Positions 8,794 to 30,062 of a stretch of 36,015 bases of DNA are shown here, piece after piece. The notes below the pieces were generated by a model. That model was not told the DNA's origin. It made no database searches and was given only the letters and a program-made list of their open reading frames with translations. Both the position numbers and the translations under genes were made by a program. This DNA comes from an uncultured Pseudomonadota bacterium (GTDB lineage: Bacteria > Pseudomonadota > Gammaproteobacteria > Competibacterales > Competibacteraceae): the NCBI GenBank assembly GCA_903844665.1, contig CAIMUS010000128.1, forward strand, positions 1 to 36,015, written 5' to 3'. Every line of letters starts with the position of its first letter. Positions within the stretch are counted from its first letter, which is position 1.

Positions 8794-9663
8794 CTACCGG
8801 AATAGATGTACATTGCCGTAATCGATGATGACATAAGCGACCAGCCACAATAGAATTAACGCAAGAATGCGGCGTTCCTTGACCAGGATCTTTTCGGGTT
8901 CCTCACCATCCTGACGCACCATGACAATGCGTTTATAGTGCATGACCGCATAATATACGATGGGTAAGGTAACGACCAGCGTGGGATTTTTTCCAGAAGT
9001 CACCGTGAACAGTGCATAGCACAGGATCGCCATCGTAGCGGCGCTATTAAGCAAACTGTCCAGGTAGTCGATGGTATAACCGCTGAGTACCGGCCGTTGC
9101 GAGATACCCTGAGCGGTCAAGTTGTGCATTTCCGCCCGCCGCTTGGCGATCGCCAGGAACAGCGCCAGAAACAAGACACACAGCACAGCCCAGGAAGTGG
9201 GCAGATCGCCAAAAACGTAAATACCGGCCAGCAAGCGCAGAATGAAACCAAAAGCGATGGAAAGCACATCGATTACAGCAATGTGCTTGAAAAAAAGCGA
9301 ATACAGCAAATTGTTCCCGACATAGAGCAGGACACAGGCCAGCGTCGACCAGCCTAAGGCCCACGCTCCAACCAAAGCTCCTAGAGCCAGGCCGCCACCT
9401 AAAACGGCGGCTGTAGGAACGCTGACCTCGCCACTGGCGATAGGGCGATTGCGCTTGCTGGGATGGCGGCGGTCGCGCTCACGGTCGACGATATCGTTAA
9501 AAATGTAGACCGCCGAGGAAATGGCGCAGAAGATCAAAAAAACCGCCAGGTCCAGCAGCAGCAATGCAGGCTGACCGACGTGCCCGCCGAATATCCAGCC
9601 GGCAAAAACCAGAATGTTTTTGCTCCATTGATGCGGCCGGAGCAATTTAAGATGCGCCTTCAT
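8794..9663 (-). CDS. UbiA-family polyprenyl-phosphate phosphoribosyltransferase-like protein
   Basis: This 289-residue membrane protein has about eight to nine predicted helices. The first aspartate-rich motif NDIVDRERD (residues 56-64) is followed by HPSKRNRPIASG (67-78). That combination is characteristic of the decaprenyl-phosphate 5-phosphoribosyltransferase branch (Rv3806c-like), not of UbiA or heme O synthase. Such enzymes move 5-phosphoribose from PRPP to a polyprenyl phosphate. The start overlaps the stop of the SMR-like gene by one base (TGATG), so the two are probably co-translated. The family is solid; the exact substrate is inferred. Confidence 0.85.
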   Translation of the reverse strand: MKAHLKLLRPHQWSKNILVFAGWIFGGHVGQPALLLLDLAVFLIFCAISSAVYIFNDIVDRERDRRHPSKRNRPIASGEVSVPTAAVLGGGLALGALVGAWALGWSTLACVLLYVGNNLLYSLFFKHIAVIDVLSIAFGFILRLLAGIYVFGDLPTSWAVLCVLFLALFLAIAKRRAEMHNLTAQGISQRPVLSGYTIDYLDSLLNSAATMAILCYALFTVTSGKNPTLVVTLPIVYYAVMHYKRIVMVRQDGEEPEKILVKERRILALILLWLVAYVIIDYGNVHLFR

Positions 9664-10028
9664 CAGGACCGGCCTAGCATGAAGATACCGAACACCACCG
9701 CCACCAGACCGATATAGTGGTTGAGCGTCAGTTGTTCGTCGAACAACCAGTGGGCCGCCAGCGCGAGCATGGCGAAGCCGGAACCGGCGAGCACGGGATA
9801 AGCGATGGAGACGGGCAATTTTTCCAACGCTTTGGCGAACAGGATGACATTGATACCGTAAAAAAGCAGTCCGCCGATAAACCAGGGTGAGAGCAACAGT
9901 TCGAACGGTCCCTCATCGCCACGCGCCACCAGCCGCGATTTTTTAAGCAGAAGGTTGCCGATGCAGGAGTTGATGCCCGCGACCAGCACCAGCAGCCAGG
10001 TTGTCCAATACAAGGTTATAGAACCCAT
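9663..10028 (-). CDS. SMR/EamA-type small transporter, ArnE-like
   Basis: This 121-residue protein has four predicted membrane helices. The segment with PVSIAYPVLAGSGFAMLAL aligns with the SMR/DMT signature. The start at 10028 (MGSITLYW) is preferred to a longer frame reaching 10121, because the longer N-terminus is unlike the family and lies wholly inside the upstream epimerase gene; the chosen start overlaps that gene by 13 bases. By eye, the essential membrane glutamate of EmrE-type drug pumps (E14) corresponds to a serine in GINSCIGNLLLKKS. That argues for an ArnE/F-like carrier of a lipid-linked sugar, consistent with the UbiA-family partner downstream. Confidence 0.78.
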   Translation of the reverse strand: MGSITLYWTTWLLVLVAGINSCIGNLLLKKSRLVARGDEGPFELLLSPWFIGGLLFYGINVILFAKALEKLPVSIAYPVLAGSGFAMLALAAHWLFDEQLTLNHYIGLVAVVFGIFMLGRS

Positions 10029-11044
10029 TGCAGCAGCCTTAAAATGCCCTGTTTGACGGGGCGGCGATGATGGCTGCCACCGGTAGTGGCCAGCACCCGC
10101 TCCCGGTTGGCCAGATACCAATCATAACTCTGGGCAAACATTTCCTCATTTGAGTACTTCGGCTGCCAGCCCAGTTCAGTACGGGCTCTGGTGATGTCGA
10201 AATACATCGAGCGGCCGTACATCAGCGCATGATAGGCGCCCAGTGGCGAAAGTCCCAACGTACTGGTGATTTTCATACCCAGGATAGCTAGGTTCATGGG
10301 TACACTTTTCACCCTGGATCGGGTACCGGCATGGGCGATTAACCCCTCCAGGACTTCGCGCATGGTGCCATAGCGATCGGTACCGCAGTTGTAAACAGCC
10401 GGTCCGGCGCTCTCTCCCGCCAGAATGCAGGCCTCAGCCAAGTCGTCGGCGTGGATAAACTGATAGACATTGTCACCGCGCCCGAGAACGGGCACGTTGA
10501 CGCCTTCACGAATCCACTCGAACAGAATTTGAAAAATACCCAGTCGCCCATGGCCGATAATGGTGCGCGGTCGAATAATCGACACGTCCAGTCCCTGGCC
10601 AGCGAAGCGCTGGCATAACTGTTCGCCCTCTAGTTTTGCGCGCCCATAGTCTTCCCGCGGCTGGGGAATCATGGTCTCGGTGACCGGATTACGCTCCGGA
10701 ATACCATAGACAGCACTGGAAGAAGTATAGATAACCTTATGACAGCCCGCATCCAAGGCAGCTTTAAGAAGGTTTTCGGTGCCTTGCACGTTGACCGACT
10801 CGAACAGATGCCGATCTTTCGCCAAGGGTACCTGGGCAACGTTATGATGTACAACGTCGATCCCTTCGCAGGCTGCCCGAATGGCGGCGTAGTCGCGGAT
10901 ATCCCCCTGCAGAAATTCGACATTCACAGGTCGGTCATCGGCGTCGTTGATATCGAAAACCCGACACTGGCCATCGCGTTCCAGCAATCTGCAGAGCAGT
11001 AATGAACCGAAATAGCCGGAGCCTCCTGTAACCAGATAGTGCAT
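10016..11044 (-). CDS. NAD-dependent epimerase/dehydratase (extended SDR)
   Basis: This 342-residue extended short-chain dehydrogenase has a nucleotide-binding TGGSGYFG at residues 6-13. TSSSAVYG lies near 106-113 and the catalytic YGRAK near 133-137. The family interconverts nucleotide sugars or acts on 3-beta-hydroxysterol-like substrates; the substrate cannot be read from sequence. It leads a three-gene run with the SMR-like and UbiA-like genes, overlapping the former. This suggests it acts on the same sugar or lipid-sugar, possibly as a keto-reductase or epimerase. Confidence 0.85.
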   Translation of the reverse strand: MHYLVTGGSGYFGSLLLCRLLERDGQCRVFDINDADDRPVNVEFLQGDIRDYAAIRAACEGIDVVHHNVAQVPLAKDRHLFESVNVQGTENLLKAALDAGCHKVIYTSSSAVYGIPERNPVTETMIPQPREDYGRAKLEGEQLCQRFAGQGLDVSIIRPRTIIGHGRLGIFQILFEWIREGVNVPVLGRGDNVYQFIHADDLAEACILAGESAGPAVYNCGTDRYGTMREVLEGLIAHAGTRSRVKSVPMNLAILGMKITSTLGLSPLGAYHALMYGRSMYFDITRARTELGWQPKYSNEEMFAQSYDWYLANRERVLATTGGSHHRRPVKQGILRLLQWVL

Positions 11045-11197
11045 ATCAGCTTCCCTCTTAACTGTTTATCAAGGTGTTGCCACACCAGGGTAGTTGGGTC
11101 GGGCGCCCGGGCCAGTCTATCTGCCACCCGTGCGCTATGGGTAAGTGTTGAATCAAGTTGGAAACTATAAAGAGTTGGGGAGCGCCGAAATTGCACT

Positions 11198-12577
11198 CTA
11201 TTTCAGGCTATTCGGTTGTTGCCTTGGGCGCTCCTGATCACGTTTTCGGTTCATCCGGCTGGCTATAGCCAGTGTAACAACCGTTATGACCAGAGGCTGT
11301 GTTGGAATTGAGTACCGCCCATTTTCACCATATTCGGTAAGCGCCTGAACAACCGAGGTGCCTAGAATAACAGTGGTCAGTAATAGCGGGACAAGGTTGT
11401 ATTGTAGCGGCTCACGTCTTATAAACAGTTGCCATAGCAGCACTACCGTGGCAATCAAAAATAAGAGATTGAACAGGCGATACAGCAGTTGCTGTCCTTT
11501 CCAGATAATTTTCAAGCTATCGGCCAGGGGTTGAAATTTGAGTTTATCCAGATGCCAGTAATTGGGGACGACCCAGAAACTGAGCCAGGCATCTGCGACA
11601 CTGGCCATATACCGCAGTGGAAACTGCGCAAACAGATGCATTGATAGTTGTTGAAATTGATGGGAAATTTGAGGTTCTGGCAATCCGGTCACCTGCCGCA
11701 ATTCCTGGCGCGCAAGCCAGAAAGTCATCCGATGACTTCCAGTCTCGGCCATTTTAATTTTACGGTATTTTAAATAGATGTCGCGGATTACTGCATATTC
11801 ATCGGGTGCATACTCCATGAAAGCGCCGCTATGGTTGGTCAGATGATAACCGAGCCAGGTGGTCATACTAAAATAACCTGTTTTTTCCTTGTTAAAAGAC
11901 ATCCATCCGATCACGGGCGCCAATGAAAAAATAAGGAATATCGATAGCAGAGATACCCTCTTAAACTGAAAAAAAATAACAATAAAAGAGGCAAGCAGCG
12001 GAATAATGAATAAATACTGTGGGCGTGTCAGAGTCAGTAACGCCGAGATCAGACCAACCGCAGCCAACGAAGACCAATTACTCTTATGTATAGCTGAATA
12101 AATAAATAGATAGCAGACTAATATCACCAAGAAAGTGGTCAATGTTTCTGTGAGAATAAAAGCTTCGAAAAACATTTCGTTCAATGCAAGCAACTGCAAT
12201 ACTGCGCCTGCCAAAGCCCACTTCACACTCATGCCGTGAAGACGTATAATAAAAAACACTAATATCGATATCAGTAGTCCCAATATCGATTGAATTATCC
12301 ATATTATGTAATTATTATTAAACGCAAGCAGAATTAATACTGGATAGCCAGGCGTGCGAAATCCATTATATTCATGAAAATCGAAATTTGCGATCTGGCT
12401 GGCAAGTTGTTGATAAGTACCGGTGTCATCTGCAGGCAGCGGAGAATATAGTAAAAACAATAACCCCCGTGTAAGTATCCAAAGTCCAATTAACAGCAGC
12501 AAGGCAAGGCGTTGATCACGGCGATCAGCATTTCTATCAATAAATAATGTTCTGGAATTAAATGCGGCGGCGGTCAT
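11198..12577 (-). CDS. GT-C/ArnT-PMT-like membrane glycosyltransferase
   Basis: This 459-residue polytopic protein has about ten or more membrane helices. An acidic pair D50-D51 in the first extracytoplasmic loop and RTPGYP at 74-79 are typical of the GT39/PMT_2 (GT-C fold) family, whose members use polyprenyl-phosphate sugars. TETL in a later helix is also common in these proteins. The coding sequence is visibly richer in A and T than the neighbouring hem and ubi genes. It lies 17 bases downstream of the unrecognised membrane gene. The acceptor and sugar are unknown. Confidence 0.75.
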   Translation of the reverse strand: MTAAAFNSRTLFIDRNADRRDQRLALLLLIGLWILTRGLLFLLYSPLPADDTGTYQQLASQIANFDFHEYNGFRTPGYPVLILLAFNNNYIIWIIQSILGLLISILVFFIIRLHGMSVKWALAGAVLQLLALNEMFFEAFILTETLTTFLVILVCYLFIYSAIHKSNWSSLAAVGLISALLTLTRPQYLFIIPLLASFIVIFFQFKRVSLLSIFLIFSLAPVIGWMSFNKEKTGYFSMTTWLGYHLTNHSGAFMEYAPDEYAVIRDIYLKYRKIKMAETGSHRMTFWLARQELRQVTGLPEPQISHQFQQLSMHLFAQFPLRYMASVADAWLSFWVVPNYWHLDKLKFQPLADSLKIIWKGQQLLYRLFNLLFLIATVVLLWQLFIRREPLQYNLVPLLLTTVILGTSVVQALTEYGENGRYSIPTQPLVITVVTLAIASRMNRKRDQERPRQQPNSLK

Positions 12578-12594
12578 ATATTTTACTTCTCCAC

Positions 12595-13224
12595 TTAGTG
12601 TTGGATGTTACCAAAATTAGAATCAGGAGAACTGCATTCAGCATTAGGCTTCACCTCGACGAAATCTTTGGTTACTGAGAAAGCATCCGCTAACCCTAGC
12701 CATGAAGAAGTCAATGTCTTCCCCTGATCTGTAATCTGCAAGCGCCCATCCTCAACATGAATATTTCCAGTCGCTACCTGCTCTCTGACTCTTTTTTCAA
12801 TCGCCTTGTTTTTAATTACAAATTGCTTCACAAAATTACATTGAATTTCTGACATGGTTAAATCACCTGAATCGAGTAAAGCAAGGATAAACATAGAAAT
12901 GGATCTATCCAACAGAGTAGGTAATGTAATATGAACAGCGTATGAGCCAGCGGCTCCAACAAATACCCCTAGAATAATATAACTGGCAAATGTCCTTGAG
13001 CTTGAAGTCAGCAGGGCCAATAAGAGACCACCTCCAACCACCAAAGCGGTCATAATAACAATAATCCAAATTCCCTCATAGTAAACAATGGATGCTGGAT
13101 ATATTTTACGCTTGATGATCAGCGTTGCTATAAATATAATAAAAAATATCCCTGCTACCAGTAGCCCTTTGAGCAGATTTAAGACTTCGCTTTTTAGAGT
13201 AGTATTCTGGTTTTGCGCATTCAT
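12595..13224 (-). CDS. Unrecognised membrane protein with winged-helix-like C-terminus
   Basis: I do not recognise this protein. From the ATG at 13224 it has 209 residues; a longer frame reaches 13299, but neither start has a good ribosome binding site. The first 110 or so residues contain four hydrophobic segments. The soluble tail holds a helix-helix-wing-like stretch (KRVREQVATGNIHVEDGRL, then QITDQGK) that resembles a winged-helix fold of the kind ending in 'LTPKG'. Composition is AT-rich. It is followed 17 bases later by the GT-C gene, so a role in membrane glycan assembly or its control is plausible but inferred. Confidence 0.65.
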   Translation of the reverse strand: MNAQNQNTTLKSEVLNLLKGLLVAGIFFIIFIATLIIKRKIYPASIVYYEGIWIIVIMTALVVGGGLLLALLTSSSRTFASYIILGVFVGAAGSYAVHITLPTLLDRSISMFILALLDSGDLTMSEIQCNFVKQFVIKNKAIEKRVREQVATGNIHVEDGRLQITDQGKTLTSSWLGLADAFSVTKDFVEVKPNAECSSPDSNFGNIQH

Positions 13225-13446
13225 AGACAAGTTTACTATTAAACGAAGGTGATTGTGCGGATAGCGGAAACTAATAGCAAAAATTAGCGGGTATTGCAAT
13301 AGTCAGCTGCCGAATGAGCGATCACAAACGATATAAGTGATAAAAATACAGGTTGACTAAATCAAAATCTTACAAGTGCCGCCAGGGCCGAAACCGAGGC
13401 ATTGGCAGTTTGTTAAGCTTTATTAACTGTCTCAGTTAAACATGTG

Positions 13447-14520
13447 TCAATCCCCATTTAGAACAGAGGGCGAAGCAGCCATTAACCATCGCAGGCTGCG
13501 CCGCATCCCCTCTTCCAGCGCCACGGTCGGTGCATAGCCCAGATCTCGCCGGGCTTTCTCAATCGAGCAGGCGATGGTCTTGTTCATCTCGGACAGCACA
13601 TGGATTTTCTGCTGGTAAAAGCCCAGGGACTGGATACTCCAATCACACAGCCAGGCGATCTTACTCACAATGCCAGGCAGGCGCAGACGTGTATGCTTGC
13701 AGACTTGGCCAAATTCGGTCTCCAGCAGGCGCTCGATGGTAGTCACGATTTCGTTCATCGTATACGGTCGTACGTCGGCAATCCAGTAAATCTGGCCATT
13801 GGCTGCGGGCGTGAGCGCCGCCAGGAGCATTCCCTGGGACAGATTGTCCAGATACGCCATGGAACGGCGGTTCTCGCCCCCACCGACGATGGGTACTGCG
13901 CCATCCCGTATCATGCGGAAGAACAGCGTCTGGCGTGGTGGCTGGAACGGCCCGTAAAACCAGGGAGCACGGATGATCACGGTCTCGATCTGTCCGGCGG
14001 CCTGGACTGCTTTGACCTGTTGCTCCATCAGCACTTTGGAGCGACCATAACCCATATACGGCTGATAGGGTGAGGCTTCGTCGAAGCGATGGTCCAGGTG
14101 CGGATTGCAGCCGATCGGCGAATTGGAGGACATGACCACAGCGCGTCGCACGCCAGCCTCCTGGGCGGCAGCCAGGAGATTCTGCGTACCACCCACATTG
14201 ACTGCATAGAACTCCCGGGTGCGGCGCGGGTGGATCATGCCGGCCAGATGGAACAGAATTGCCTGTTGGGCATTCGCACAGAAACGGCGGCAGTCCTGCA
14301 GGTTGGTCAGGTCGCCAATCACTACCTCGGCCCGTGGGCAAACGGCGGTGACTGCGCCTTCCTGCCCAGGCATAACCAGCGCTCGAATGGTTAAAGCCGG
14401 TTGCGGTTGGCTGAACCGCTCGCAGTCCGGCAGTCCGTTGCTCAAGGCATGCAGGAACCCTTGACCCAGCCAGCCCGCCGCCCCGGTGACCAATACCGTA
14501 TCGGTGCTCAAATCCAGCAT
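13447..14520 (-). CDS. NAD-dependent epimerase / 3-beta-HSD-like SDR
   Basis: This 357-residue extended SDR has TGAAGWLGQG at residues 12-21, MSSNSPIG near 129 and YGRSK near 158-162. The spread of conserved residues suits the 3-beta-hydroxysteroid dehydrogenase/isomerase-like branch or nucleotide-sugar epimerases. It starts 12 bases after the GMC oxidoreductase stop, so the two very likely share an mRNA. Together a flavoprotein oxidase and an SDR could carry out an oxidation-reduction epimerisation. The substrate is unknown. Confidence 0.83.
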   Translation of the reverse strand: MLDLSTDTVLVTGAAGWLGQGFLHALSNGLPDCERFSQPQPALTIRALVMPGQEGAVTAVCPRAEVVIGDLTNLQDCRRFCANAQQAILFHLAGMIHPRRTREFYAVNVGGTQNLLAAAQEAGVRRAVVMSSNSPIGCNPHLDHRFDEASPYQPYMGYGRSKVLMEQQVKAVQAAGQIETVIIRAPWFYGPFQPPRQTLFFRMIRDGAVPIVGGGENRRSMAYLDNLSQGMLLAALTPAANGQIYWIADVRPYTMNEIVTTIERLLETEFGQVCKHTRLRLPGIVSKIAWLCDWSIQSLGFYQQKIHVLSEMNKTIACSIEKARRDLGYAPTVALEEGMRRSLRWLMAASPSVLNGD

Positions 14521-14532
14521 GATTGCGGTTGC

Positions 14533-16020
14533 CTATAACTTGCCTAGAAAGCGCAACGCATTGCGCCGTACCAAAGCCATCACGGTGCCTTGGGGATTGA
14601 CTCCCGGCGCCCCTCCCAGCAGGGAAGCATCCGCTATATATAAATCATCCAGTCCATGCACTTTGCCAAAGGAATCGACGGCCGCTAGGCGGCGGTTCTC
14701 CCCCATCGGACAGGAAGCCATCAGGTGAACGGTCATCAGGCTGGTGCGTGTCGGCGGCAGGGGACGGGGAATACAGGTCAGATCAGCTTCGCCACGAATG
14801 ACCGGATGACCATTGATACTGGGATAGAGGGCCTCGGCTCCGGCAGCCAGCAATACCCGGCACAGCTCACGCAGGGCATCGGACAGATCGTACAGATCGG
14901 TGGCTCGCAGCCGATAGCGGATCAGGGGATCAAGGTAACAAGGGACCGGCCTGACAATGCCTTGGCCACCGCCGATCATCGCATAATAAATGGCCATGTG
15001 GCGCCACTGCGGGTGCACTTTAGCGAGATCACGGGGATGGTCAACCAAAGCCAGCGCCAGGTAAGGAGGGGTGCTGATGGCGCAGCCAAAACTGAACCGG
15101 GGTGCAAATTCCTTGACCTGATGGACTGGCACGCCCATGTCGATGCTGTTGACTGCCTCAGGAAAACACGCTACCACCTTGACGGTGGGATGAAACTTCA
15201 GACTGTTGCCCACATTCGACTTAATCCCGCTACGCCGCAGCAATGTCGGCGTCTGGATGGCGCCACCGGCCACGAATACGGTGGCGGCGTCGATCGTCAG
15301 TCGGCGCTTCCTGACGCCGGCCGGAGAATGCTCGGCCCAAAGTCGCCAACCCGTGCGGGTACGAGTCAGGCGTACAATGCGCGTATCGGGCAGCAGGGTG
15401 GCGCCAGCAGCCAGGGCGCGCGGAATAAAGGTTTGCGTCATGGATTGCTTGATCCCGCCAGGGGCATCCGCTCCTGCGGCAGCAGTATAGGCAAACCAAC
15501 GTGGCACTTCCAGGGACTGCCAGCCCAGACGTTGGGCGCCGTGGTGCAGCTTCAGCGAGGCCGCCGGGGCCGCACCACCGGGCAGGCAGGAGACGCTGAG
15601 GTCCCTTTCACAGGCGCTGAAATGAGTGGTCAGATCCGCCTCGCTGAAGCCTTCGATCCAATAGGCGCGGCGCCACTGTTCCAGAATATCCGCCGGCGTC
15701 CGGTGATACAGACCACTGTTGATTTCGCTGCCACCCCCCACGCATCGCCCTTCCACATAGCCGATTTTACACCGTCCCAGCGCCGCTGTCAGACCGCCAT
15801 TGCGATATTTCTGCTCCATCTCCTGGCAGGTAAAGGGTATACAAGAATCCAGGGGCAGATAAGGACCCTCTTCGAGCAGCAGAACCTCACGACCCGCCTC
15901 CGCCAACAGAGCCGCCGTAATAGCACCACCGGGGCCGGAGCCAATCACGGCGATGTGGGTACAGAGCGAGGGAGGAGGGGATGAGGCAACCGCGGCAGGT
16001 GGTAACTTATCTCGCGGCAT
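14533..16020 (-). CDS. GMC-family FAD oxidoreductase
   Basis: The FAD-binding motif IAVIGSGPGG lies near residue 23 of the chosen start. A GRCVGGGSEINSGLYHR block follows, and the C-terminus carries HLMASCPMG and ADASLLGGAPGVNPQGTVMA, with the catalytic His and Asn positions of glucose-methanol-choline oxidoreductases. The ATG at 16020 is preferred to the one at 16044 because it has a GAGG six bases upstream; this gives 495 residues. It overlaps the small upstream gene. The sequence is nearest to long-chain or sterol alcohol oxidase types. The substrate is not determined, and a prenyl-linked sugar or an alcohol are both possible. Confidence 0.85.
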   Translation of the reverse strand: MPRDKLPPAAVASSPPPSLCTHIAVIGSGPGGAITAALLAEAGREVLLLEEGPYLPLDSCIPFTCQEMEQKYRNGGLTAALGRCKIGYVEGRCVGGGSEINSGLYHRTPADILEQWRRAYWIEGFSEADLTTHFSACERDLSVSCLPGGAAPAASLKLHHGAQRLGWQSLEVPRWFAYTAAAGADAPGGIKQSMTQTFIPRALAAGATLLPDTRIVRLTRTRTGWRLWAEHSPAGVRKRRLTIDAATVFVAGGAIQTPTLLRRSGIKSNVGNSLKFHPTVKVVACFPEAVNSIDMGVPVHQVKEFAPRFSFGCAISTPPYLALALVDHPRDLAKVHPQWRHMAIYYAMIGGGQGIVRPVPCYLDPLIRYRLRATDLYDLSDALRELCRVLLAAGAEALYPSINGHPVIRGEADLTCIPRPLPPTRTSLMTVHLMASCPMGENRRLAAVDSFGKVHGLDDLYIADASLLGGAPGVNPQGTVMALVRRNALRFLGKL

Positions 16021-16375
16021 GCGTTGCCTCGTCGTAGGCGGCATACCAGCCGAATACCGTCAGGCTTTCATAAAACCGGATCAGATCGCGCCCCGGTCCG
16101 AACCGTGCGGCGCGCCAGCGGGCGATCCGGTACAGCCGGCGTTCAGGAGGCAATCGATGGAACGGTTGTAAAGTCGTCAGCCAACTGGCAGCGGTAAACG
16201 ACAACGTCGCTAACAGCAGCGGCAACTTCAGGTAATCCGGCATACCTTGATAACGCGCCAAGACAAAGCGTACACAAGTGTTCTCCAAAAACCGGTGCTG
16301 GTGCGGATCCTCCGGACAGTGTGCCGCTACCAGGGAGTACACCAAGGCTGAAACGGTATGATGAAAGAGTGACAT
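16007..16375 (-). CDS. Small companion protein of the GMC oxidoreductase
   Basis: The frame runs back to a TTG at 16411, but the ATG at 16375 (122 residues) is used here; neither has a clear ribosome binding site. The protein has one moderately hydrophobic stretch (KLPLLLATLSFTAASWL) and many Arg and Trp residues in its second half. Its position directly upstream of and overlapping a GMC oxidoreductase recalls small subunits such as gluconate 2-dehydrogenase subunit 3. I cannot confirm membership by eye, and no function is asserted. Confidence 0.55.
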   Translation of the reverse strand: MSLFHHTVSALVYSLVAAHCPEDPHQHRFLENTCVRFVLARYQGMPDYLKLPLLLATLSFTAASWLTTLQPFHRLPPERRLYRIARWRAARFGPGRDLIRFYESLTVFGWYAAYDEATHAAR

Positions 16376-16577
16376 AAATTCGTATATGGATTTTAAGACC
16401 GGTATCGACAAGAATACTACATCTATCGTGCCAGATGCCAGTCAGCGGCCCCTGGCCCCTGGCTTTTATTTGGTAGACGTTGTCGTGGCGTAAACCGATG
16501 GTTCTGGTCGAAGAATTTATAATTGCAATTATTTTCTCCGCGAAGCACGTGTTCTGCCGTGGCATGAGGTTGTGAGG

Positions 16578-16988
16578 ATGGCGTATATAGTGGCTCCACT
16601 GGTGGCATGGTTGGTGGCCGGCAGCCTGAAGTTTTTGCTTAATTCCATCCTGGCCCGGCGTCTTGCCTTTGAGGAAATCGGCCTCGGTAGGCTGCCCAGT
16701 ACCCACACCACTATTGTCAGCACGATGGCTTTTTTGGTGGGTTTGCGTGAAGGGTTTGCCACGCCCTTGTTTGGTATCGCGCTGACACTGGCATGGATCG
16801 TCATCCTCGACGCCATGGACTTGCGCCGCCGTATCGAGCAACAGAGTACAGCGCTCAACCGGCTGGGCGCCTCCGGTGCAGGCTGGAAACCACTGCGGGA
16901 ACGGATCGGTCATCGCCCTCATGAAGTATTGGCGGGAATAGTAACGGGCTTGGCCTGTGCTTATGCATTAGCTCTTACGCTACCTTAA
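16578..16988 (+). CDS. Divergent PAP2 family protein (DUF212)
   Basis: This 136-residue membrane protein has LPSTHTT near residues 39-45, LDAMDLRR near 83-90 and GHRPHEV near 116-122. Together with an early VAWLVAGSLKFLL segment, these define the divergent PAP2 (DUF212/YuiD) family, relatives of phosphatidic acid and polyprenyl pyrophosphate phosphatases. The ATG at 16578 is preferred over GTG 16572, with GAGG at 16565-16568 as ribosome binding site. It is transcribed away from the GMC pair. A lipid-linked phosphosugar phosphatase role is conceivable given the neighbourhood, but enzymatic activity of this family is not well established. Confidence 0.85.
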   Translation: MAYIVAPLVAWLVAGSLKFLLNSILARRLAFEEIGLGRLPSTHTTIVSTMAFLVGLREGFATPLFGIALTLAWIVILDAMDLRRRIEQQSTALNRLGASGAGWKPLRERIGHRPHEVLAGIVTGLACAYALALTLP

Positions 16989-17231: not shown

Positions 17232-18194
17232 CTAATGCCGATAGTTCCATAATAAACGTGCCATAAAACGAGTCGGCTGTGCATCCCAAGGAGTAAAGCG
17301 CGGCAGTTGCCAGGGATCGGTTTGCAGCGTAATTCCCCCCCAGTTTGTCGATACGGCAGCAACAAAGCCTAAATCCTGCACCATCTCTCTATGCTCCGGT
17401 AGATAATCCTGACCCAATTTGCCATTGGGATAGGCGAACAGGTTAACCTTTTGTCCGAGCAGTTCCTCCAGATATTGCTTGCTGGTGGCGATTTCCCACC
17501 GGGCCGTCGGGTGATCCAGCCGGGCAAGAATGGGATGATTCACGGTATGGGCGCCGATTTCCATACCTGCCGCTTGTAATTCACGCACCTGTTGGGCAGT
17601 AAGCATTAACTTGTCAGGCAACGGTGTGGCAACCAGAGAAGCCAGGTAACGAACCCGCTCCTCCCTCTGTTGAAAGGGTAGATACTTCAGTAGCTGAATG
17701 AGCCGTATAGCCACATCGTTCCGTTCCTGCCAACCATCCAGGCGGTAACTGCCAAGGCCCTGCTCGCTAAGATCCAGGATGCCGGCGGGTAGACAGCGAA
17801 GTGCTTCTATTACGGTATCATTCCACATCCGGCCACCATCCAGATAACCGGTAGCGATAAAGAAGGTGGCGGGTACGCCTAGGGTTTGCAGAATCGGCAA
17901 AGCGACCTCGAGGTTATCGGCATAGCCATCATCGAAGGTCACACAAACCGCCCGTGCGGGCAGGTTGCTCTCACGCAGCAGGCGCAGCGCCAGGGTGAGC
18001 GGCAGTACCCTGAAATAACGGGCCAGCAGTTGTATATGCCAGCTAAAAGTGGCTGCATCCACCTCACCGGGACGCATGGGATCCGGTTCAGACAGCACCC
18101 GATGATAGATCAAAATAGAGAGCCTTCCCCTCCTGCCACCCGTCGCCAGCCAGGAACCCAGGTATTTCAACAAAGTAAGTTGTATTGCGGCCAT
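17232..18194 (-). CDS. Polysaccharide deacetylase family protein (CE4)
   Basis: This 320-residue NodB-homology protein has YHRVL at residue 30, the metal-binding TFDDGYADN near 89-97 and HTVNHPILARL near 217-227, the usual CE4 aspartate and histidine motifs. No signal peptide is apparent, so it is probably cytoplasmic or membrane-associated. It is the last gene of the XrtA locus, 27 bases after the ligase-like gene. It probably N-deacetylates a sugar in the exopolysaccharide or its precursor. It differs from the DUF3473 deacetylase in the same locus. Confidence 0.88.
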   Translation of the reverse strand: MAAIQLTLLKYLGSWLATGGRRGRLSILIYHRVLSEPDPMRPGEVDAATFSWHIQLLARYFRVLPLTLALRLLRESNLPARAVCVTFDDGYADNLEVALPILQTLGVPATFFIATGYLDGGRMWNDTVIEALRCLPAGILDLSEQGLGSYRLDGWQERNDVAIRLIQLLKYLPFQQREERVRYLASLVATPLPDKLMLTAQQVRELQAAGMEIGAHTVNHPILARLDHPTARWEIATSKQYLEELLGQKVNLFAYPNGKLGQDYLPEHREMVQDLGFVAAVSTNWGGITLQTDPWQLPRFTPWDAQPTRFMARLLWNYRH

Positions 18195-18221: not shown

Positions 18222-19556
18222 TTAACGACCGAGAACAGCTTTGGTATCCTGCAAAGTTCCTGACCATTGATATCGATTACCTTCGATTTTCTCGGTTGCT
18301 TTACTATGCTCTTCCGCTATCGTCCTGCCCAATACCATGATAGCGACCAGATGCCAGGGGAGATCAAAGTAAGCTAAAGTATGGAAAGTACCTCCTGTAC
18401 AGTAAGCAATCAATCCAAGCTGCACCATTTTTGTAAGATTCGCAAGCCATTCCAAATCGGGCTGCCCGCGGCACTGGCGAATAGTCCGGCTTCCTGTTCG
18501 CCATGCCATGAAAAGAATGGTGACGAACATACCCAGGCCAGGCCAACCATGCTCGGCCAGTGTGGAAAAATAGATACTATGAACAGCAGCAGCATAGCCA
18601 GGAGGTGCATCAGAGGAATATAGTTGATAGGTTAAAGTGCTCCAGGGACTAAACCCGGCGCCCATAGGTCTATGTTGAACCAGATTTAGAGTCATCTTCC
18701 ACTGGATGATACGATCCTGAGCAGAGCCTTCACGTTTCCCCTCCTCGTTCGTCGTATAAATACTGGTCATACGATCATGCCAGGATTGGGGCATGAAGGC
18801 AAACAGCGCAGGAATTAACAGCATGATAGCAATTACTGTAATCAGTTTATTCTTGGTTTTAAGCCATAGGAAAGCAGCGACTGATAACCCACTTATAAAA
18901 GCAGCACGCGATTGAGAACCCACAATAGATATACTTGTCAATAACATAGAGATTAATAATGCCAGCCGAACCCATCGATTTTGTGAGATGATCCGGAGAT
19001 AATTCATTAAAGGTAGCACGATAGCCAAGGCTAAGGCTAAACCGTTATTATCTTCAATAAAAGTGCCAGGTGGCCCCCAGACATGAAAGTTGCCACCGCT
19101 CTTAAGAGTAAATATTCCTCCCTTAAGACCGTAGTAACCCAAAGATAACACAATAACCCAAATTAACATATTAAGTCGCTCCTTCGATCCCATCAACATA
19201 ATGGTAAAAAATGTTACCAGTTGAATCTTGAGAACCTTGATCAATTGTATATAGGCATCATCAGGAAACATTGCAAATATCGTCGTAAAACACATCCAGG
19301 CAATAAAAAACAGCCATAATACAGTAAGGCCTGTTAAGGGTATCCGCTTGGGTTCTTTAGAAAAGAGCATACCTAACATGGTACTGATAGCCACTACCTG
19401 GGCAAAAGGAAAATTCATGGCCAGCCCCCAGCTTATCCGATGAGGATTCATATAACTGAGCCATGACCAAAGCAATATTCCTACATGCGGTTTGCTGAAA
19501 ACTTGTGGTAAAAAACCGAAAACCATAGCAAACACGAACAAATCTCGCAAAGCCAT
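18222..19556 (-). CDS. Putative O-glycosylation ligase, exosortase A-associated
   Basis: This 444-residue protein has about ten or more membrane segments and the N-terminal block MALRDLFVFAMVFGFLPQVF. Another block, WSWLSYMNPHRISWG near 31-45, is also diagnostic of the exosortase A-associated O-antigen ligase-like family (TIGR03097 type). A large periplasmic loop near 260-320 would hold the Wzy/ligase active site. It is thought to polymerise or transfer polyprenyl-linked glycan. Base composition is more AT-rich than the glycosyltransferase upstream, and a 189-base gap separates them. Confidence 0.88.
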   Translation of the reverse strand: MALRDLFVFAMVFGFLPQVFSKPHVGILLWSWLSYMNPHRISWGLAMNFPFAQVVAISTMLGMLFSKEPKRIPLTGLTVLWLFFIAWMCFTTIFAMFPDDAYIQLIKVLKIQLVTFFTIMLMGSKERLNMLIWVIVLSLGYYGLKGGIFTLKSGGNFHVWGPPGTFIEDNNGLALALAIVLPLMNYLRIISQNRWVRLALLISMLLTSISIVGSQSRAAFISGLSVAAFLWLKTKNKLITVIAIMLLIPALFAFMPQSWHDRMTSIYTTNEEGKREGSAQDRIIQWKMTLNLVQHRPMGAGFSPWSTLTYQLYSSDAPPGYAAAVHSIYFSTLAEHGWPGLGMFVTILFMAWRTGSRTIRQCRGQPDLEWLANLTKMVQLGLIAYCTGGTFHTLAYFDLPWHLVAIMVLGRTIAEEHSKATEKIEGNRYQWSGTLQDTKAVLGR

Positions 19557-19745
19557 AATTATTTCTTCTACTGTTAAGCGTGGTTCAGCTCTGGCGGCTG
19601 TAGTGATTGGTCAGTTTAACTTGGCTTTTTCCGCCATTAGGAAATCGTTCTGCCAGCAGACAACCGGGCTGCCGGTCAGCCTGGCCACAGCGCCAGCAGG
19701 CGACGAGATCAATTCGCCTAATACGGCCTTTGCACATCGACCGGG

Positions 19746-20957
19746 TCATACATCCCTGCCCAGGACGGCTCCATATACCTGCCGGTAGCGGGCAACGCTA
19801 TTGAACCAGCTACGCTCGCCCTCCACAAAGCGGCGGGCGGCGGCTTTGAGCTTTGGCCAGTGCTGGGGGCGCGCCAGGAGATCCACAATACCGGCCGCCA
19901 GTTCCGCCGCATCGCCGGCGCGGAATAATACACCCGTTTCACCATCGCGGATGAGTTCCCGGTGGCCGCCGACATCGGAGGCCACCACCAGCCTGCCCTG
20001 CGCCATGGCCTCGAGCGGCTTGAGCGGAGTGACCAGTTCGGTTAAACGGATGGCGAGCCGGGGATAGACCAGTATATCGATAAGATCGTAGTAGCGCTGC
20101 ACTTCAGCATGGGGGACACGACCGGTAAAGATCACCTTGTCGGCGATACCCCGCTCCTCGGCCAGGCGTTTGAGAAAAGCCTCCTGAGGACCACCGCCTA
20201 CCAGCAGTACCCTGACATTGCTCACCTTGGCCAGCACCAGCGGCAGGGCCTCCAACAGCAGCGGCAAGCCCTCATAGGCGTAGAACGAACCGATAAAACC
20301 CAGTACCCGGGCATTCGCCAGTTCCAGTTGGCGTTGCAGCGCCAGATCGGGGGCCTCGCCGGTGGAGAATTGTTCAATATCCACCGCATTCGGAATGACT
20401 GTCACTTTGGCCGCCGGGATACCCCGTTCGATGATATCGCCGCGCAGCCCCTCGCAAATCGTCGTGACATGGTTGACCCGTCGATACACCCAGGTTTCCA
20501 GCGCCCGGGTCGCGCGATAGCGCCAACCGCCCGCCGCGGCAGTACCATGATCGACCGCGGCGTCTTCCCAAAAGGCCCGCACTTCGTAGACGACCGGAAT
20601 GCCCCACTTGCGCCCGATATAGAGCGCGGGAATGGCGTTCAGCACCGGAGAATGCGCATGCAAAATATCAGGTCGATGCAGCCGGACGACTTGTTCAATG
20701 CGCCTGGCCAGCGCGTTCATCAGTACCAACTCACCCAGGATGGGAAATTGCGCCAGGTTTCCCCGACCGGACAGGGTACGGTAGAAATGCCAGCCCTCGA
20801 TCGTCTCTTCCCACTGCCGGCAATTTTCCTGCTTGGGGCTGGTCAGATGGATAGTTTCCCAATGCAGGCGGCGCTGCTCATTCAAGATGGCCAGGGTGCG
20901 GAAAGTGTAACCACTGTGAAGCGGAATGGAATGATCGAGAATGTGCAGAATTCGCAT
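19746..20957 (-). CDS. Exosortase A-associated GT4 glycosyltransferase
   Basis: This 403-residue GT-B fold enzyme of the GT4 family has an N-terminus MRILHILDHSIPLHSGYTFR. It also carries HAHSPVLNAIPAL near 119 and the C-terminal PRLAIRLTELVTPLKPLEAM block containing the E-x7-E-like nucleotide-sugar site. It fits the PEP-CTERM/exosortase A-associated glycosyltransferase family (TIGR04063 type). It is cytoplasmic, building the repeat unit on the lipid carrier. It is 33 bases downstream of the asparagine synthase-like gene. Confidence 0.9.
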   Translation of the reverse strand: MRILHILDHSIPLHSGYTFRTLAILNEQRRLHWETIHLTSPKQENCRQWEETIEGWHFYRTLSGRGNLAQFPILGELVLMNALARRIEQVVRLHRPDILHAHSPVLNAIPALYIGRKWGIPVVYEVRAFWEDAAVDHGTAAAGGWRYRATRALETWVYRRVNHVTTICEGLRGDIIERGIPAAKVTVIPNAVDIEQFSTGEAPDLALQRQLELANARVLGFIGSFYAYEGLPLLLEALPLVLAKVSNVRVLLVGGGPQEAFLKRLAEERGIADKVIFTGRVPHAEVQRYYDLIDILVYPRLAIRLTELVTPLKPLEAMAQGRLVVASDVGGHRELIRDGETGVLFRAGDAAELAAGIVDLLARPQHWPKLKAAARRFVEGERSWFNSVARYRQVYGAVLGRDV

Positions 20958-20990
20958 ACTGGAAATCGGACCTGTTTCTCTGCGTTGCGC

Positions 20991-22892
20991 TCAGACCCGA
21001 AAATTGCCCAACCGCCGTAAGAACGCTTCGAACATCAACAGGGTCCACAACGCGGCGCTGTTATCGCGTTGTCCCGTTCGATGCTGATCCACCAGGTGTT
21101 GCAAGAAATCCGGATTGAACAGGCCACTTTCCGCCAGTAGCGGTCCCAACACCGCATCCCGCACTCGCGTCCGCAGCGGACCGCGGAACCAACTGGCCAA
21201 AGGCACTGCAAAACCCATCTTGGGACGATACAGAATGGTATCCGGCAAATAGGGGCGCAAGGCTTTTTTGAAGAGATATTTGCCTTCCCGACCCCGCAGC
21301 TTCCAGGACGGCGGCAGCCCGGAAAGCCACTCGACCAGGGGATGATCCAGCAGCGGCACCCGCACTTCCAAGGCATGGGCCATGCTGGCCCGGTCTACCT
21401 TGGTCAGGATATCGCCCGCCAGATAGGTTTTCAGGTCCAGATACTGCACCAGGGAAAGTGAATCCTCGGTGGGAGCACGCCGGGCATGTTCCCGCAGCAC
21501 CTCGACCGCCTGATAGCCTTGTAATTGTCGACGGAAGGAGGCGCTGAACAACTGCTGCCGCAAGGGATCCCCCAGAATGGAAACACTATGAAAATAGCCT
21601 TCGATGCTGTCCCTGGCCAGCGCCTCGAGCGTGGCTTTGGCCCGGAATGGTTTGGGCGCCCAGTCCGCCTTGGGATAGATCCGTCCGAGCCAACCGAACA
21701 AGGGACGGCGTACCCCTAAGGGCAGCAACCCCCGCACCCGCTCTTCGTAAGTATGCCAGCGATAGCGGCGATAGCCGGCCAGGTTCTCGTCACCGCCATC
21801 CCCGGACAGCGCCACCGTCACCTGCCGTCGAGCCAGCTCGCAGACGCGATAGGTCGGCAAGGCCGAACTATCGGCGTAAGGCTCGTCATAGAGCTCCGCC
21901 AGCCGTTCGACCAAGGCGAAGTCATTCGGATCCACCGCTTCGACCCGGTGGTCGGTATGGTAGCGTTCAGCCACTTGGGCGGCATAGGCGGACTCATTAA
22001 ACTGAGGATCGCCAAAGCTGATCGAGCAGGTCTTGACCGGATCGCTGGATAGCCCCGCCATCATGGCCACCACCGCGCTCGAATCCACCCCACCCGAGAG
22101 AAAGGCGCCCAGCGGTACCTCCGCAATCAAGCGAATGCTGACGGCCTCCCGCAGACGGTGCAGCAATTCTTCACCGACATCTTCTTCAGTGCCGACAGGC
22201 ACCGGTTTAAAGGGTACATCCCAGTAACAGCGCGGCGGTGGGAGCGGTTGCCGCCGGCGCACCACCAGCGTATGCGCCGGCGGCAGCTTCAGGGCATGAC
22301 GCAGAATGGTTTTGGGTTCAGGCACATAACCATAGGCGAAGTAGTCTTCGACAGCCTGCGGCTCGATCTCCCGGGGCAGTTCCGGATGGGTCAATAGCGC
22401 TTTCAGCTCGGAACCAAAGAGCAACTGACCATTGGGGAGAAGGGCATAATAAAGGGGTTTGATACCCAGCCGGTCGCGTCCCAAAAAGAGGGTTTCCCGG
22501 TTACGGTCCCAGACGGCAAAAGCGAACATGCCGCGAAATCGGGTTACACAGGTCTCGCCCCACTGTTCCCAGGCATGAACGATCACTTCGGTGTCGCAGT
22601 GGGTACGGAAGGTATGTCCCAGCGCCTGCAATTCCTCGCTCAATCCCTGGAAATTATAGATTTCCCCGTTGTAGACCACGACCACGGAGCCGTCTTCGTT
22701 GAACAGGGGCTGCTGCCCGCTGGAGAGATCGATGATAGAGAGACGGCGGTGACCCAATCCCACTCCAGGCTCACGGTGCAGCCCGCCTTCATCGGGTCCC
22801 CGATGATGCTGGGACTCATTCATCCGGTTGAGCAGCGCTTGGTCTATTGCCGTGGTGGCGCGTGTGTCGAAAATCCCGGTGATGCCGCACAT
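20991..22892 (-). CDS. Asparagine synthase-like amidotransferase, XrtA-associated
   Basis: This 633-residue protein has an N-terminal class II glutamine amidotransferase domain with Cys2 (MCGITGIFD). Its RGPDEGG, YNGEIYNF and CDTEVIVHAWEQWG blocks match. The C-terminal ATP-pyrophosphatase domain carries the P-loop FLSGGVDSSAVVA near residue 265. This is asparagine synthase (AsnB) architecture in the exosortase A-associated clade (TIGR03108 type). In this setting it probably amidates a carboxylated sugar of the polysaccharide instead of making asparagine, though this is inferred from context. Confidence 0.93.
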   Translation of the reverse strand: MCGITGIFDTRATTAIDQALLNRMNESQHHRGPDEGGLHREPGVGLGHRRLSIIDLSSGQQPLFNEDGSVVVVYNGEIYNFQGLSEELQALGHTFRTHCDTEVIVHAWEQWGETCVTRFRGMFAFAVWDRNRETLFLGRDRLGIKPLYYALLPNGQLLFGSELKALLTHPELPREIEPQAVEDYFAYGYVPEPKTILRHALKLPPAHTLVVRRRQPLPPPRCYWDVPFKPVPVGTEEDVGEELLHRLREAVSIRLIAEVPLGAFLSGGVDSSAVVAMMAGLSSDPVKTCSISFGDPQFNESAYAAQVAERYHTDHRVEAVDPNDFALVERLAELYDEPYADSSALPTYRVCELARRQVTVALSGDGGDENLAGYRRYRWHTYEERVRGLLPLGVRRPLFGWLGRIYPKADWAPKPFRAKATLEALARDSIEGYFHSVSILGDPLRQQLFSASFRRQLQGYQAVEVLREHARRAPTEDSLSLVQYLDLKTYLAGDILTKVDRASMAHALEVRVPLLDHPLVEWLSGLPPSWKLRGREGKYLFKKALRPYLPDTILYRPKMGFAVPLASWFRGPLRTRVRDAVLGPLLAESGLFNPDFLQHLVDQHRTGQRDNSAALWTLLMFEAFLRRLGNFRV

Positions 22893-22970
22893 GCCTGTTG
22901 CAACCTCAGTTTTGTCTGGTGATAAGAGTCAGGAGTACCGGCGCGCAGGACGGCGCTGGCAACCGTGCTA

Positions 22971-24575
22971 TCAGCCGCCCGCCTTGCGGCCAGGCTGAGA
23001 CTGCCCTTGGTTTTGTCTTGCCAAAGTCGCTTCGATCTGACCGGCCATGCTATCCAGGAACTGCTGTAACAAAGCTTCGGCATCGGCGGGCTGGACCTGA
23101 TAATCAGCGGCTACCGCCACTATGGCGGAACCTCGCCGGGATCCACTAAAGCTATCCCAAGCCTCCAGCAATTTAGCCAGATAGGGCGAAGTGGTGGTTT
23201 TTCCTCCTATCCAATACCAGTGCCAGATCAGCCGTTTACGGTTAGCTGAGCCGACCCGGGTCGCCACCAGAGTCTGCCTGCCAGTAGCGAGCGGCGCCGT
23301 CATGTTCTGCTCACCCACATAAACCCAACGTTTACCATCATAGAGCGCATTACCGGAACTGACCAGCTTGGCGTCCTGGCGCTGCCGGCGGTAATAAGCG
23401 ATATAGAGATACACCGGCTGCTCCCGCCAGCGATAGCTGCGCAATAGCGTACCGTCGGCGCCGAGGAAAACCGGTTGCCAGTCACCATCGCCATCCAGCG
23501 GTCCGCTCCAGGGAGCGACCGCGGCGGGCCCGGTTAGCGACACGGGGCCGCTCTGCGAGGCCCCGGCGTTCAACCAGGCTACGCCAGCCGGCCCCAGAGA
23601 CAATACCAGCAGGCAGGCCAGCGCGGTGAAAACGAGCCTGCGGAAAGAAACCGTCGCACCAGGGGGGGTGGCGGCCGGTATCGCGGCACTGGGCCGGGCG
23701 GTGTCAGGAATGGATTCACGCCAGAAAGAGCCGATCCAGAACATCAGCAAAACCACGACCCCGAAGAAAAGCCAGCCATAGATGATATGATCGACGCCGG
23801 TGGCGATCTTGCCATCGCTCAAGTAGGCCAGCATCACGATGCCATAGGCTCGCAAGCCATTGGCGATAATAGGCACCACGAGAGCCATGGCGACAAAGGC
23901 AAGTCGTCGCCAGAGGCTGCGGTAGCTCAAATAGGCATACAGGCAGCCCAACGCCAGCGAGGCGATCAGGTAACGCAGCCCGCTGCACGCTTCGGCCACC
24001 TCGAACTGAGCCGTAGGTAAAACGAGCTGGTAGCCCTCCCAGAAAACGGGTATGCCGGTAAGACGTAACAGGGCGACGCTAAACCATGCCGTAAAATCCT
24101 GTAACGGCAGGGTCAGAAATTCCCCCACCGGCACCGCAAAATAGAGATAGGCCAGAGGAAAGGCAATCGCCCAACTGACCTGCCAGCCCAGCAAGGCAAC
24201 GACGCTGGCCACTACCATGGTCACCAGAGCGAACTGCTGTACCACGATGACTTCGGCCGCATAAGCGGCCAGCCAGGCTATACCCGCCAGGACCAGTAAG
24301 AGCAGCCCCGATGGATTGCTGCGCGGCAGTAATTGCGCCAAGGTGTGACGCCGTTGCCAGATCATGTAGAGCGCTATCGGGACAATCAGCATGCCATGTG
24401 CGTAAGTATCCGAACGCCACCAGATTTCCGCCATGGAAACCGCCGTCTGCCAGTACAACCCGAGCAGAGCGAGTAACGTTATCCCCAGTAACAGCAATGT
24501 CCAAAGCCAGTACCCTGTGGCGATACTGTCTGGCTTCATTACGCGATTCGATAGGTTCCAGCCAATGAAGTGCAT
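22971..24575 (-). CDS. xrtA: Exosortase A fused to an EpsI domain
   Basis: The start at 24575 is chosen because it follows the upstream stop by two bases and has GGAGGAG about ten bases before it; the open frame extends to 24677 without support. Of 534 residues, about 1-290 form a polytopic exosortase with WWRSDTYAHG near 52-61. The catalytic triad is C197 (EACSGLR), R242 (NGLRAYG) and H263 (DHIIYG). Residues from about 310 onward form a periplasmic EpsI domain. XrtA cleaves and transfers proteins bearing a C-terminal PEP-CTERM signal at the inner membrane. The fusion with EpsI is the usual form in EPS loci of this type. Confidence 0.95.
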   Translation of the reverse strand: MHFIGWNLSNRVMKPDSIATGYWLWTLLLLGITLLALLGLYWQTAVSMAEIWWRSDTYAHGMLIVPIALYMIWQRRHTLAQLLPRSNPSGLLLLVLAGIAWLAAYAAEVIVVQQFALVTMVVASVVALLGWQVSWAIAFPLAYLYFAVPVGEFLTLPLQDFTAWFSVALLRLTGIPVFWEGYQLVLPTAQFEVAEACSGLRYLIASLALGCLYAYLSYRSLWRRLAFVAMALVVPIIANGLRAYGIVMLAYLSDGKIATGVDHIIYGWLFFGVVVLLMFWIGSFWRESIPDTARPSAAIPAATPPGATVSFRRLVFTALACLLVLSLGPAGVAWLNAGASQSGPVSLTGPAAVAPWSGPLDGDGDWQPVFLGADGTLLRSYRWREQPVYLYIAYYRRQRQDAKLVSSGNALYDGKRWVYVGEQNMTAPLATGRQTLVATRVGSANRKRLIWHWYWIGGKTTTSPYLAKLLEAWDSFSGSRRGSAIVAVAADYQVQPADAEALLQQFLDSMAGQIEATLARQNQGQSQPGRKAGG

Positions 24576-24577
24576 GG

Positions 24578-25843
24578 TTAGGACGCTCCTCCGGCAAAAT
24601 CGTATACCGCTGCGGCCACTGGCGATGGCAGTTCGCTTTCCAAGAGTTGCCCGAAGCGGTCCAGGTGCACAGGCCAATGGTGATGTTGCAGTACCCAGCG
24701 CCGCCCCAGAGAGACGGAGTCTCGATCCATTTCCGTCAGCATCCGGACGGCAAGATTGGCCAAGTCCTGGGGCGTATCCGCTATCCAGGGTTCCAGCACC
24801 GGACAGGGTAACAAACCGTCGGCGGCGGCGCGGGTAAGCAGGATCGGCTTGGCCATAGCCATGGCTTCCAGGACTTTGTTCTGTACGCCGCGGGCAATGC
24901 GCAAAGGCGCCACCGCCAGTTGCGCGTGCGCCAGATAAGGCCGGATGTCACGCACCGCGCCGATCACCTGCACTCCAGGCAACCGCTCCAGTTGTTGCAC
25001 TGCCGGGCTTGGGCGGGCGCCGACAATGGCGAAATGCGCCGTCGCTATTCGCTGGCGTATCCCAGGGAGCACCTCCCGGGCAAACCAACAAACGGCATCG
25101 ATATTAGCCCAGTAATCCATGGCGCCGGTAAACACCATGACCGGAGTGGCCGCCGGTAAGTAGGGATCGGGATAGTCCAGTTCAGGGTTGAAGAAATTGC
25201 TGTCCACACCGTTGCTGATGGATACGATCCGGGCAGCGGCGTGAGGGGCCAGTTTACGAAACAGGCCGGCTTCCTCGGTGGTCACGAATACGCTGGCGCC
25301 AAACTCCGCCGCCACCCGCCGCTCGAAGCTTAACAGGGTCCGACTCTCGCGCCGGTACAACCAACTGAGTGGCCAGGGCCGGCGCCGGCTGTATTGCGCC
25401 CATTTGTCGGAATCCACGTCGACAAAATCGATCACCCGGTGCAGATGTCGATAGGCCGGCCCTTCGACATACTGCGCCATGGCCGAGGAAAACACCAGTA
25501 CCCGCCGGATGGCAAAGCGCTGCAATACCTCATCTACCCAGCGCTGCAACCCGGCGTTGCGGTAATACGCCACCGTCAGCGCCCGATTGCTCCACAGACC
25601 GGTAAGGCTGTTTAAGCGCCCCCGGCCGGAGCCGAGGCCGGTGACATGGATTTCCCCACAGAGTGCCCGGACCTCATCGACATAACGCCAATCCTCCGGA
25701 GTATCGATAAAAGTTCCCAGATGCACCCGGTAATGGCGGGCCAGATGCTTGAGCAGATTGAAAGAGCGGATTTTATCGCCTTTATTAGGCGGATAAGGAA
25801 TGCGATGGACCAGAAATAACAGATCTTCCATGCTGACATTCAT
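24578..25843 (-). CDS. XrtA/PEP-CTERM system glycosyltransferase (TIGR03087 type)
   Basis: This GT-B glycosyltransferase begins MNVSMEDLLFLVHRIPYPPN and continues GDKIRSFNLLKHL, the hallmark start of the PEP-CTERM-associated sugar transferase stp1 family. DYWANIDAVCWFAREVLP and the C-terminal APLRIARGVQNKVLEAMAM donor-site block also fit. The ATG at 25843 overlaps the FemAB gene stop as ATGA, so I use it in place of the longer frame to 25906; a second ATG at 25831 is also possible. The length is 421 residues. Confidence 0.9.
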   Translation of the reverse strand: MNVSMEDLLFLVHRIPYPPNKGDKIRSFNLLKHLARHYRVHLGTFIDTPEDWRYVDEVRALCGEIHVTGLGSGRGRLNSLTGLWSNRALTVAYYRNAGLQRWVDEVLQRFAIRRVLVFSSAMAQYVEGPAYRHLHRVIDFVDVDSDKWAQYSRRRPWPLSWLYRRESRTLLSFERRVAAEFGASVFVTTEEAGLFRKLAPHAAARIVSISNGVDSNFFNPELDYPDPYLPAATPVMVFTGAMDYWANIDAVCWFAREVLPGIRQRIATAHFAIVGARPSPAVQQLERLPGVQVIGAVRDIRPYLAHAQLAVAPLRIARGVQNKVLEAMAMAKPILLTRAAADGLLPCPVLEPWIADTPQDLANLAVRMLTEMDRDSVSLGRRWVLQHHHWPVHLDRFGQLLESELPSPVAAAVYDFAGGAS

Positions 25844-27767: not shown

Positions 27768-27793
27768 AAGCTACTTTAAACCAGGCAGTGAAG

Positions 27794-28924: not shown

Positions 28925-28974
28925 TCTTTGTTCCGGGAATTATTCGATGCAGAATGGGGCAGTAAAATAAAATG

Positions 28975-30057: not shown

Positions 30058-30062
30058 GATAT

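Follow-up and report, generated by a model that had tools for sequence, protein, structure and literature searches.

The closest described systems for making lipid-linked pentofuranoses are the mycobacterial decaprenylphosphoryl-arabinose pathway (Rv3806c, Rv3807c, DprE1, DprE2, Rv3789 and a GT-C glycosyltransferase) and the three-component systems of Citrobacter youngae O1 and O2, which are presented in the main text of Kelly et al. 2024 (PMC11127046) together with mention of more elaborate systems holding several candidate epimerases. Here we describe a locus (positions 8794-16988) in a 36,015-nt stretch of contig CAIMUS010000128.1, assembly GCA_903844665.1, from an uncultured member of the Competibacteraceae; this whole stretch is referred to below as the window. 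The locus brings together a UbiA-family protein, an SMR protein, two extended SDRs (SDR1 and SDR2), a GMC flavoprotein, a small open reading frame (ORF) beside it and a DUF212 protein. We propose, with a probability of about 0.62, that it encodes a variant three-component pentofuranose system in which the GMC protein and the extended SDRs stand in place of DprE1 and DprE2.

The UbiA protein and the redox genes

Gene content, membership of the UbiA, SMR, SDR and GMC families, catalytic motifs, co-occurrence and re-pairing were all computed, with family calls made by Pfam and NCBIfam hidden Markov models (HMMs). The gene coordinates given in an earlier note on this DNA were verified, and the HMMs bore out six of its family assignments: a DPPR-synthase-type UbiA, an SMR protein resembling ArnE, the pair of extended SDRs, the GMC flavoprotein and DUF212. 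Two ORFs had been overlooked, namely the small ORF at 16007-16375 and a membrane ORF at 12595-13227.

The UbiA gene (8794-9663, minus strand) encodes a standalone protein that matches Pfam UbiA (7e-28) and NCBIfam NF008977, the decaprenyl-phosphate phosphoribosyltransferase model, scoring 235.4 bits where the cut-off is 234. Its only solved relatives by sequence are the mycobacterial decaprenyl-phosphate phosphoribosyltransferase entries, the best being 8j8j (E 2e-35). An alignment revealed that the NDxxDxxxDxxHxxK and KRxxE motifs are kept in the window UbiA and in the other PPPRS rows, and that their combination is missing from the genome's own UbiA and from a second UbiA-family protein of the same genome. 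In the main text of Kelly et al. 2024 (PMC11127046), the cytoplasmic-loop motifs NDxxDxxxD and R..E are placed in the phosphoribosyl pyrophosphate (PRPP)/Mg active site of PPPRS/DPPRS enzymes. In the tree the window UbiA falls inside the PPPRS/DPPRS clade and not with the UbiA/MenA-type prenyltransferases, though the two own-genome outgroup proteins sit on very long branches, so that the motif evidence weighs more. By family membership the protein is thus a predicted PPPRS/DPPRS-type phosphoribosyltransferase; a grouping with enzymes of another substrate, which the earlier note had named, along with rare co-occurrence of the homologues, as a refutation of its pathway, was not what we found.

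SDR1 (10016-11044, minus strand), a GalE-like reductase/epimerase candidate, matches Pfam Epimerase at 3e-39 and carries TGGSGYFG and YGRAK, and SDR2 (13447-14520, minus strand) matches it at 4e-31 and carries TGAAGWLG, YGRSK and an invariant SSNSP. Both keep the TGxxGxxG and YxxxK motifs required of extended SDR epimerases, and SDR2 is strongly conserved, with 51-61% identity across Alpha- and Gammaproteobacteria and a further genome, G450. We also considered SDR2 as a dehydratase, its best PDB match being dTDP-glucose 4,6-dehydratase, yet the acid/base Asp-Glu pair typical of that family is replaced by an invariant Asn-Ser, and this candidate was rejected.

The GMC flavoprotein (14533-16044, minus strand) matches Pfam GMC_oxred_N and GMC_oxred_C and is a candidate sugar-ring oxidase. 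It holds an N-terminal flavin adenine dinucleotide (FAD) motif, GSGPGG, and the C-terminal catalytic His and Asn, residues that are invariant in nine members, and has no predicted transmembrane or signal segment. The small ORF (16007-16375, minus strand) encodes a helical protein that is kept beside GMC or SDR2 wherever this gene set recurs; it was present in 9/9 such loci aligned, weakly so in two of the genomes introduced below (G360 and G221). Because of its distant likeness to gluconate 2-dehydrogenase subunit 3 (hhalign probability 81%, controls at most 0.6%), this protein may be a partner of the GMC enzyme. Its predicted model reached a predicted local distance difference test score (pLDDT) of 82, yet gave no convincing structural match, and a Pfam scan gave no meaningful one.

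No match to DprE1 or DprE2 was found in the window or in the GMC loci checked. Among 36 PPPRS loci obtained by a UbiA scan of genome contigs, DprE1 occurred in 10 and GMC in none, and of the plasmid loci taken for contrast, 5/10 carried DprE1/DprE2, mostly with GtrA. This GMC was found in 0/15 DprE1 loci, a figure that is descriptive and carries no statistical test, since the GMC loci had been selected by GMC or SDR2. Because GMC loci never carry DprE1, we suggest that the GMC protein fills the oxidase slot.

GMC enzymes oxidise primary alcohols too, which speaks for another kind of lipid-linked pentose system: the SDRs would epimerise by themselves, and the GMC protein and its small partner would act elsewhere, for instance on the 5-hydroxyl or on the transferred sugar. 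Such a division of labour would agree with the TGxxGxxG and YxxxK motifs of both SDRs, and with the single SDR ORF13 that converts ribofuranose (Ribf) to xylofuranose (Xylf) in C. youngae O2, as given in the main text of PMC11127046. It would not account as readily for the finding that GMC and SDR2 occur together wherever both are readable, nor for GMC loci that never hold DprE1, and we consider it unlikely.

Recurrence and re-pairing of the module

Plasmid searches by GMC and by SDR2, run independently, led to the same nine rhizobial plasmids, the GMC search giving three weaker, unrelated loci in addition. GMC, SDR1 and SDR2 also occur together in four further proteobacterial genomes (G221, G360, G450 and G587), and in another, G406, SDR2 stands alone on its contig. 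SDR1 was found at every GMC locus of this kind, and the module of GMC, SDR1, SDR2 and small ORF is accompanied by a recognisable UbiA on the nine rhizobial plasmids and in G221, G450 and G587. The homologues, rather than co-occurring rarely, therefore stay together in distant bacteria. The module itself is rare: SDR2 was found in 4/398 genomes of the phylum, that of the window included, and GMC in 1/40 of the order, that one being the genome of the window, and searches of further relatives with SDR2 gave few loci.

On plasmid pNGR234a of Sinorhizobium fredii NGR234 (299625-307690) the module is arranged as UbiA, SDR2 and a gene for a 658-amino-acid membrane protein, followed by a divergent arm of GMC, small ORF, SMR and SDR1. 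These genes are presumably the ones bearing y4n names; the literature searched gave no paper naming them or this gene combination and no function for the cluster. Other rhizobial copies resemble the NGR234 order, some being split by mobile elements or decayed, and the UbiA linkage is retained within ~20 kb where mobile elements split the cluster. Among the decayed copies (L090, L091 and L093), the UbiA and GMC frames are split in R. gallicum, the UbiA frame is split in Mesorhizobium 131-2-5, and a UbiA fragment is left in Mesorhizobium AR07. Two genes near the module in S. garamanticum (L051, 15447-16917), one of the phosphoribosyltransferase family and the other for a HAD hydrolase, recall two-part Ribf transferases.

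A comparison of G587 with NGR234 gave identities of 85% for GMC, 80% for SDR2, 76% for SMR and 73% for SDR1, with only 35% for UbiA. Among the 19 GMCs sampled, those of the module group in a single clade (96/95). In the UbiA tree, the window protein pairs with that of G450 (100/99), and the rhizobial, G587 and G221 module UbiAs are placed elsewhere; well-supported branches force at least three label changes, with bootstrap support not fully settled. Set against this single GMC clade, the scattered positions of the partner UbiAs lead us to conclude that the module has changed partners among PPPRS genes, a pattern that favours a functional link over a frozen neighbourhood.

These observations also bear on two readings in which the genes have no part in a common sugar pathway. 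In the first, the GMC protein and both SDRs belong to a pathway of their own that modifies lipids or terpenoids, by sterol- or hopanoid-like oxidation and reduction, and only adjoins a PPPRS gene; the SDR matches do include HpnA, OleD, SdmB and 3-beta-HSD models, the GMC matches include cholesterol oxidase, and the module contig of G360 has no clear UbiA. We nevertheless hold this reading to be improbable, as the PPPRS linkage is kept across several UbiA lineages and, over ~20 kb, despite mobile elements, and no terpene gene was seen in the annotated loci. In the second, the genes came to lie together by chance, between the hem and XrtA loci, and have no joint role. The lack of GMC in 39 further genomes of the order would fit this, and so would the spread of GC content along the stretch (0.39 to 0.61), but recurrence of the same set in Alphaproteobacteria, Gammaproteobacteria and other proteobacteria contradicts it and leaves it a very small probability.

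Phosphatase, flippase and glycosyltransferase candidates

In the module proteins of the rhizobia (NGR234), G221 and G587, a HAD domain is fused to the N-terminus of UbiA, and a HAD domain of that type removes the 5'-phosphate according to the main text of Kelly et al. 2024 (PMC11127046). Such a domain is missing from the UbiAs of the window and of G450, and searches of the two genomes for a HAD PRP found none. The DUF212 protein of the window (16572-16988, plus strand; Pfam 1.5e-28), a divergent PAP2 protein whose gene is divergently transcribed, is a candidate 5'-phosphoribosyl phosphatase. In its own genome DUF212 occurs only beside the module; it was found in 0/39 relatives of the order, and the gene for its nearest plasmid homologue (46.5% identity; the next has 33%) lies in Marivivens, where it overlaps one for a PPPRS. 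On account of these 39 relatives and the Marivivens overlap we favour DUF212 as the 5'-phosphatase at this locus, so that the earlier guess of a DUF212 phosphatase gained support, with the activity itself being a prediction. The Marivivens plasmid (L065, 4464-7250) has a run of consecutive genes for a transporter of EamA/SMR type, a glycosyltransferase, PPPRS and DUF212, with no epimerase, and this is possibly a simpler system.

The SMR gene (9663-10028, minus strand) was identified by sequence (Multi_Drug_Res 1e-10, with ArnE as the best NCBIfam match) and would fill the slot of a putative flippase of lipid-linked sugar, a slot that may be taken by MATE, GtrA or SMR proteins; flipping is thus predicted. 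The rhizobial modules hold an SMR protein ~54% identical to that of the window.

The gene at 11198-12577 (minus strand) encodes a multi-pass membrane protein of 459 amino acids, previously labelled a GT-C glycosyltransferase. It is kept as a candidate for its topology and for an Asp-Asp pair, like that of GT-C enzymes, which follows the first transmembrane helix; family, structure and profile comparisons brought it no support. No match was obtained in Pfam or PDB even at E 10, or in NCBIfam, no homologue was found among the 274 genomes searched, neither pairwise comparison nor profile comparison with PMT_2-type GT-Cs gave a match, and the single-sequence model was poor (pLDDT 51). The adjacent ORF (12595-13227, minus strand) encodes a protein with three transmembrane segments that had no family match and no homologue in the other module loci. 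The membrane genes within 11198-13227 have a GC content of 0.39-0.43 (0.43 for 11198-12577 and 0.39 for 12595-13227) inside a gene set of 0.53-0.61, and this low-GC region is possibly a later insertion or an exchange of the terminal transferase.

An XrtA/PEP-CTERM locus adjoins the module (18222-31721), with exosortase A, glycosyltransferases, an amidotransferase, FemAB, a deacetylase and an ATPase; the polysaccharide deacetylase at 17232-18194 is not of the XrtA type, the XrtA-type one being at 26916-27767. A role of the module in XrtA-linked glycan decoration was not supported, as the annotation of the stretches read around the rhizobial copies shows no XrtA gene, and GMC is lacking in the 39 relatives of the order.

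Proposed pathway and comparison with known systems

For the variant three-component pentofuranose system we infer all reactions and their order, as well as the lipid, sugar and acceptor, as follows. UbiA would transfer phosphoribose from PRPP to undecaprenyl phosphate, and DUF212 (in most relatives, the HAD domain fused to UbiA) would take off the 5'-phosphate. The GMC protein and its small partner, acting in the cytoplasm, would then oxidise a ring hydroxyl of polyprenyl-phosphate-ribofuranose, and one or both extended SDRs would reduce or epimerise the oxidised product to give another pentofuranose. The SMR protein would flip the lipid-linked pentofuranose, and a membrane glycosyltransferase, probably that at 11198-12577, would transfer it to an extracytoplasmic glycan.

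Several observations weigh against this scheme. No enzyme activity is known for any module member. DUF212 lies on the opposite strand and is not in the other module loci, and G450 had neither a HAD PRP match nor DUF212 in the searches run. In G360 the contig with the module gave no UbiA, the genome having a weak HAD/UbiA-like match on another contig, and Mesorhizobium AR07 retains a mere fragment of its UbiA gene. SMR was not found in the G221, G450 and G360 loci, and the terminal glycosyltransferase is only a candidate and differs between loci.

The presence of two SDRs and an oxidase raises the question of which pentose is made. One tentative idea, which we rate as rather doubtful, is a third, unrelated isomerisation route, in which a GMC oxidase, its small partner and two SDRs, spread as a module and re-paired, make a pentofuranose outside the Ribf, Xylf and arabinofuranose routes, for example one inverted at C2 and C3. 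No lyxofuranose is known in solved glycans, according to the main text of Kelly et al. (PMC11127046).

The lipid-linked pentose pathway put forward in the earlier note was strengthened by co-occurrence and by the identity of UbiA, while its GT-C step and a tie to XrtA remained unsupported and its general pathway had already been described (PMC11127046). New relative to the literature searched is only the GMC/extended-SDR composition: the main text of that paper uses neither the term GMC nor the term oxidoreductase, though its list of elaborate systems may include such a composition. If our proposal is true, this rare, far-flung module could serve to predict new pentofuranose decorations, among them some encoded by the symbiosis plasmids of genetically tractable rhizobia (NGR234, for example).

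The NGR234 plasmid cluster shares UbiA, SDR2, GMC, small ORF, SMR and SDR1 with the window and differs in its HAD-fused UbiA, its two divergent arms and its 658-amino-acid membrane protein, which has no detectable similarity to the protein of 11198-12577. With the C. youngae O1 and O2 systems, as laid out in the main text of PMC11127046, the window has in common a PPPRS-type UbiA, a phosphatase, a flippase and a membrane glycosyltransferase as candidates and one or more extended SDR epimerases; in contrast to them, it has GMC with a small partner, two SDRs, SMR instead of MATE and DUF212 instead of a fused HAD. Finally, a PPPRS homologue, a PAP2-like phosphatase candidate, FAD and NAD(P) enzymes and an SMR flippase candidate are common to the window and the mycobacterial pathway, whereas DprE1/DprE2 homologues are absent from the window and GMC and the extended SDRs are found instead, so that, if our proposal holds, the DprE1/DprE2 step, a mycobacterial drug target, has a non-homologous proteobacterial counterpart.

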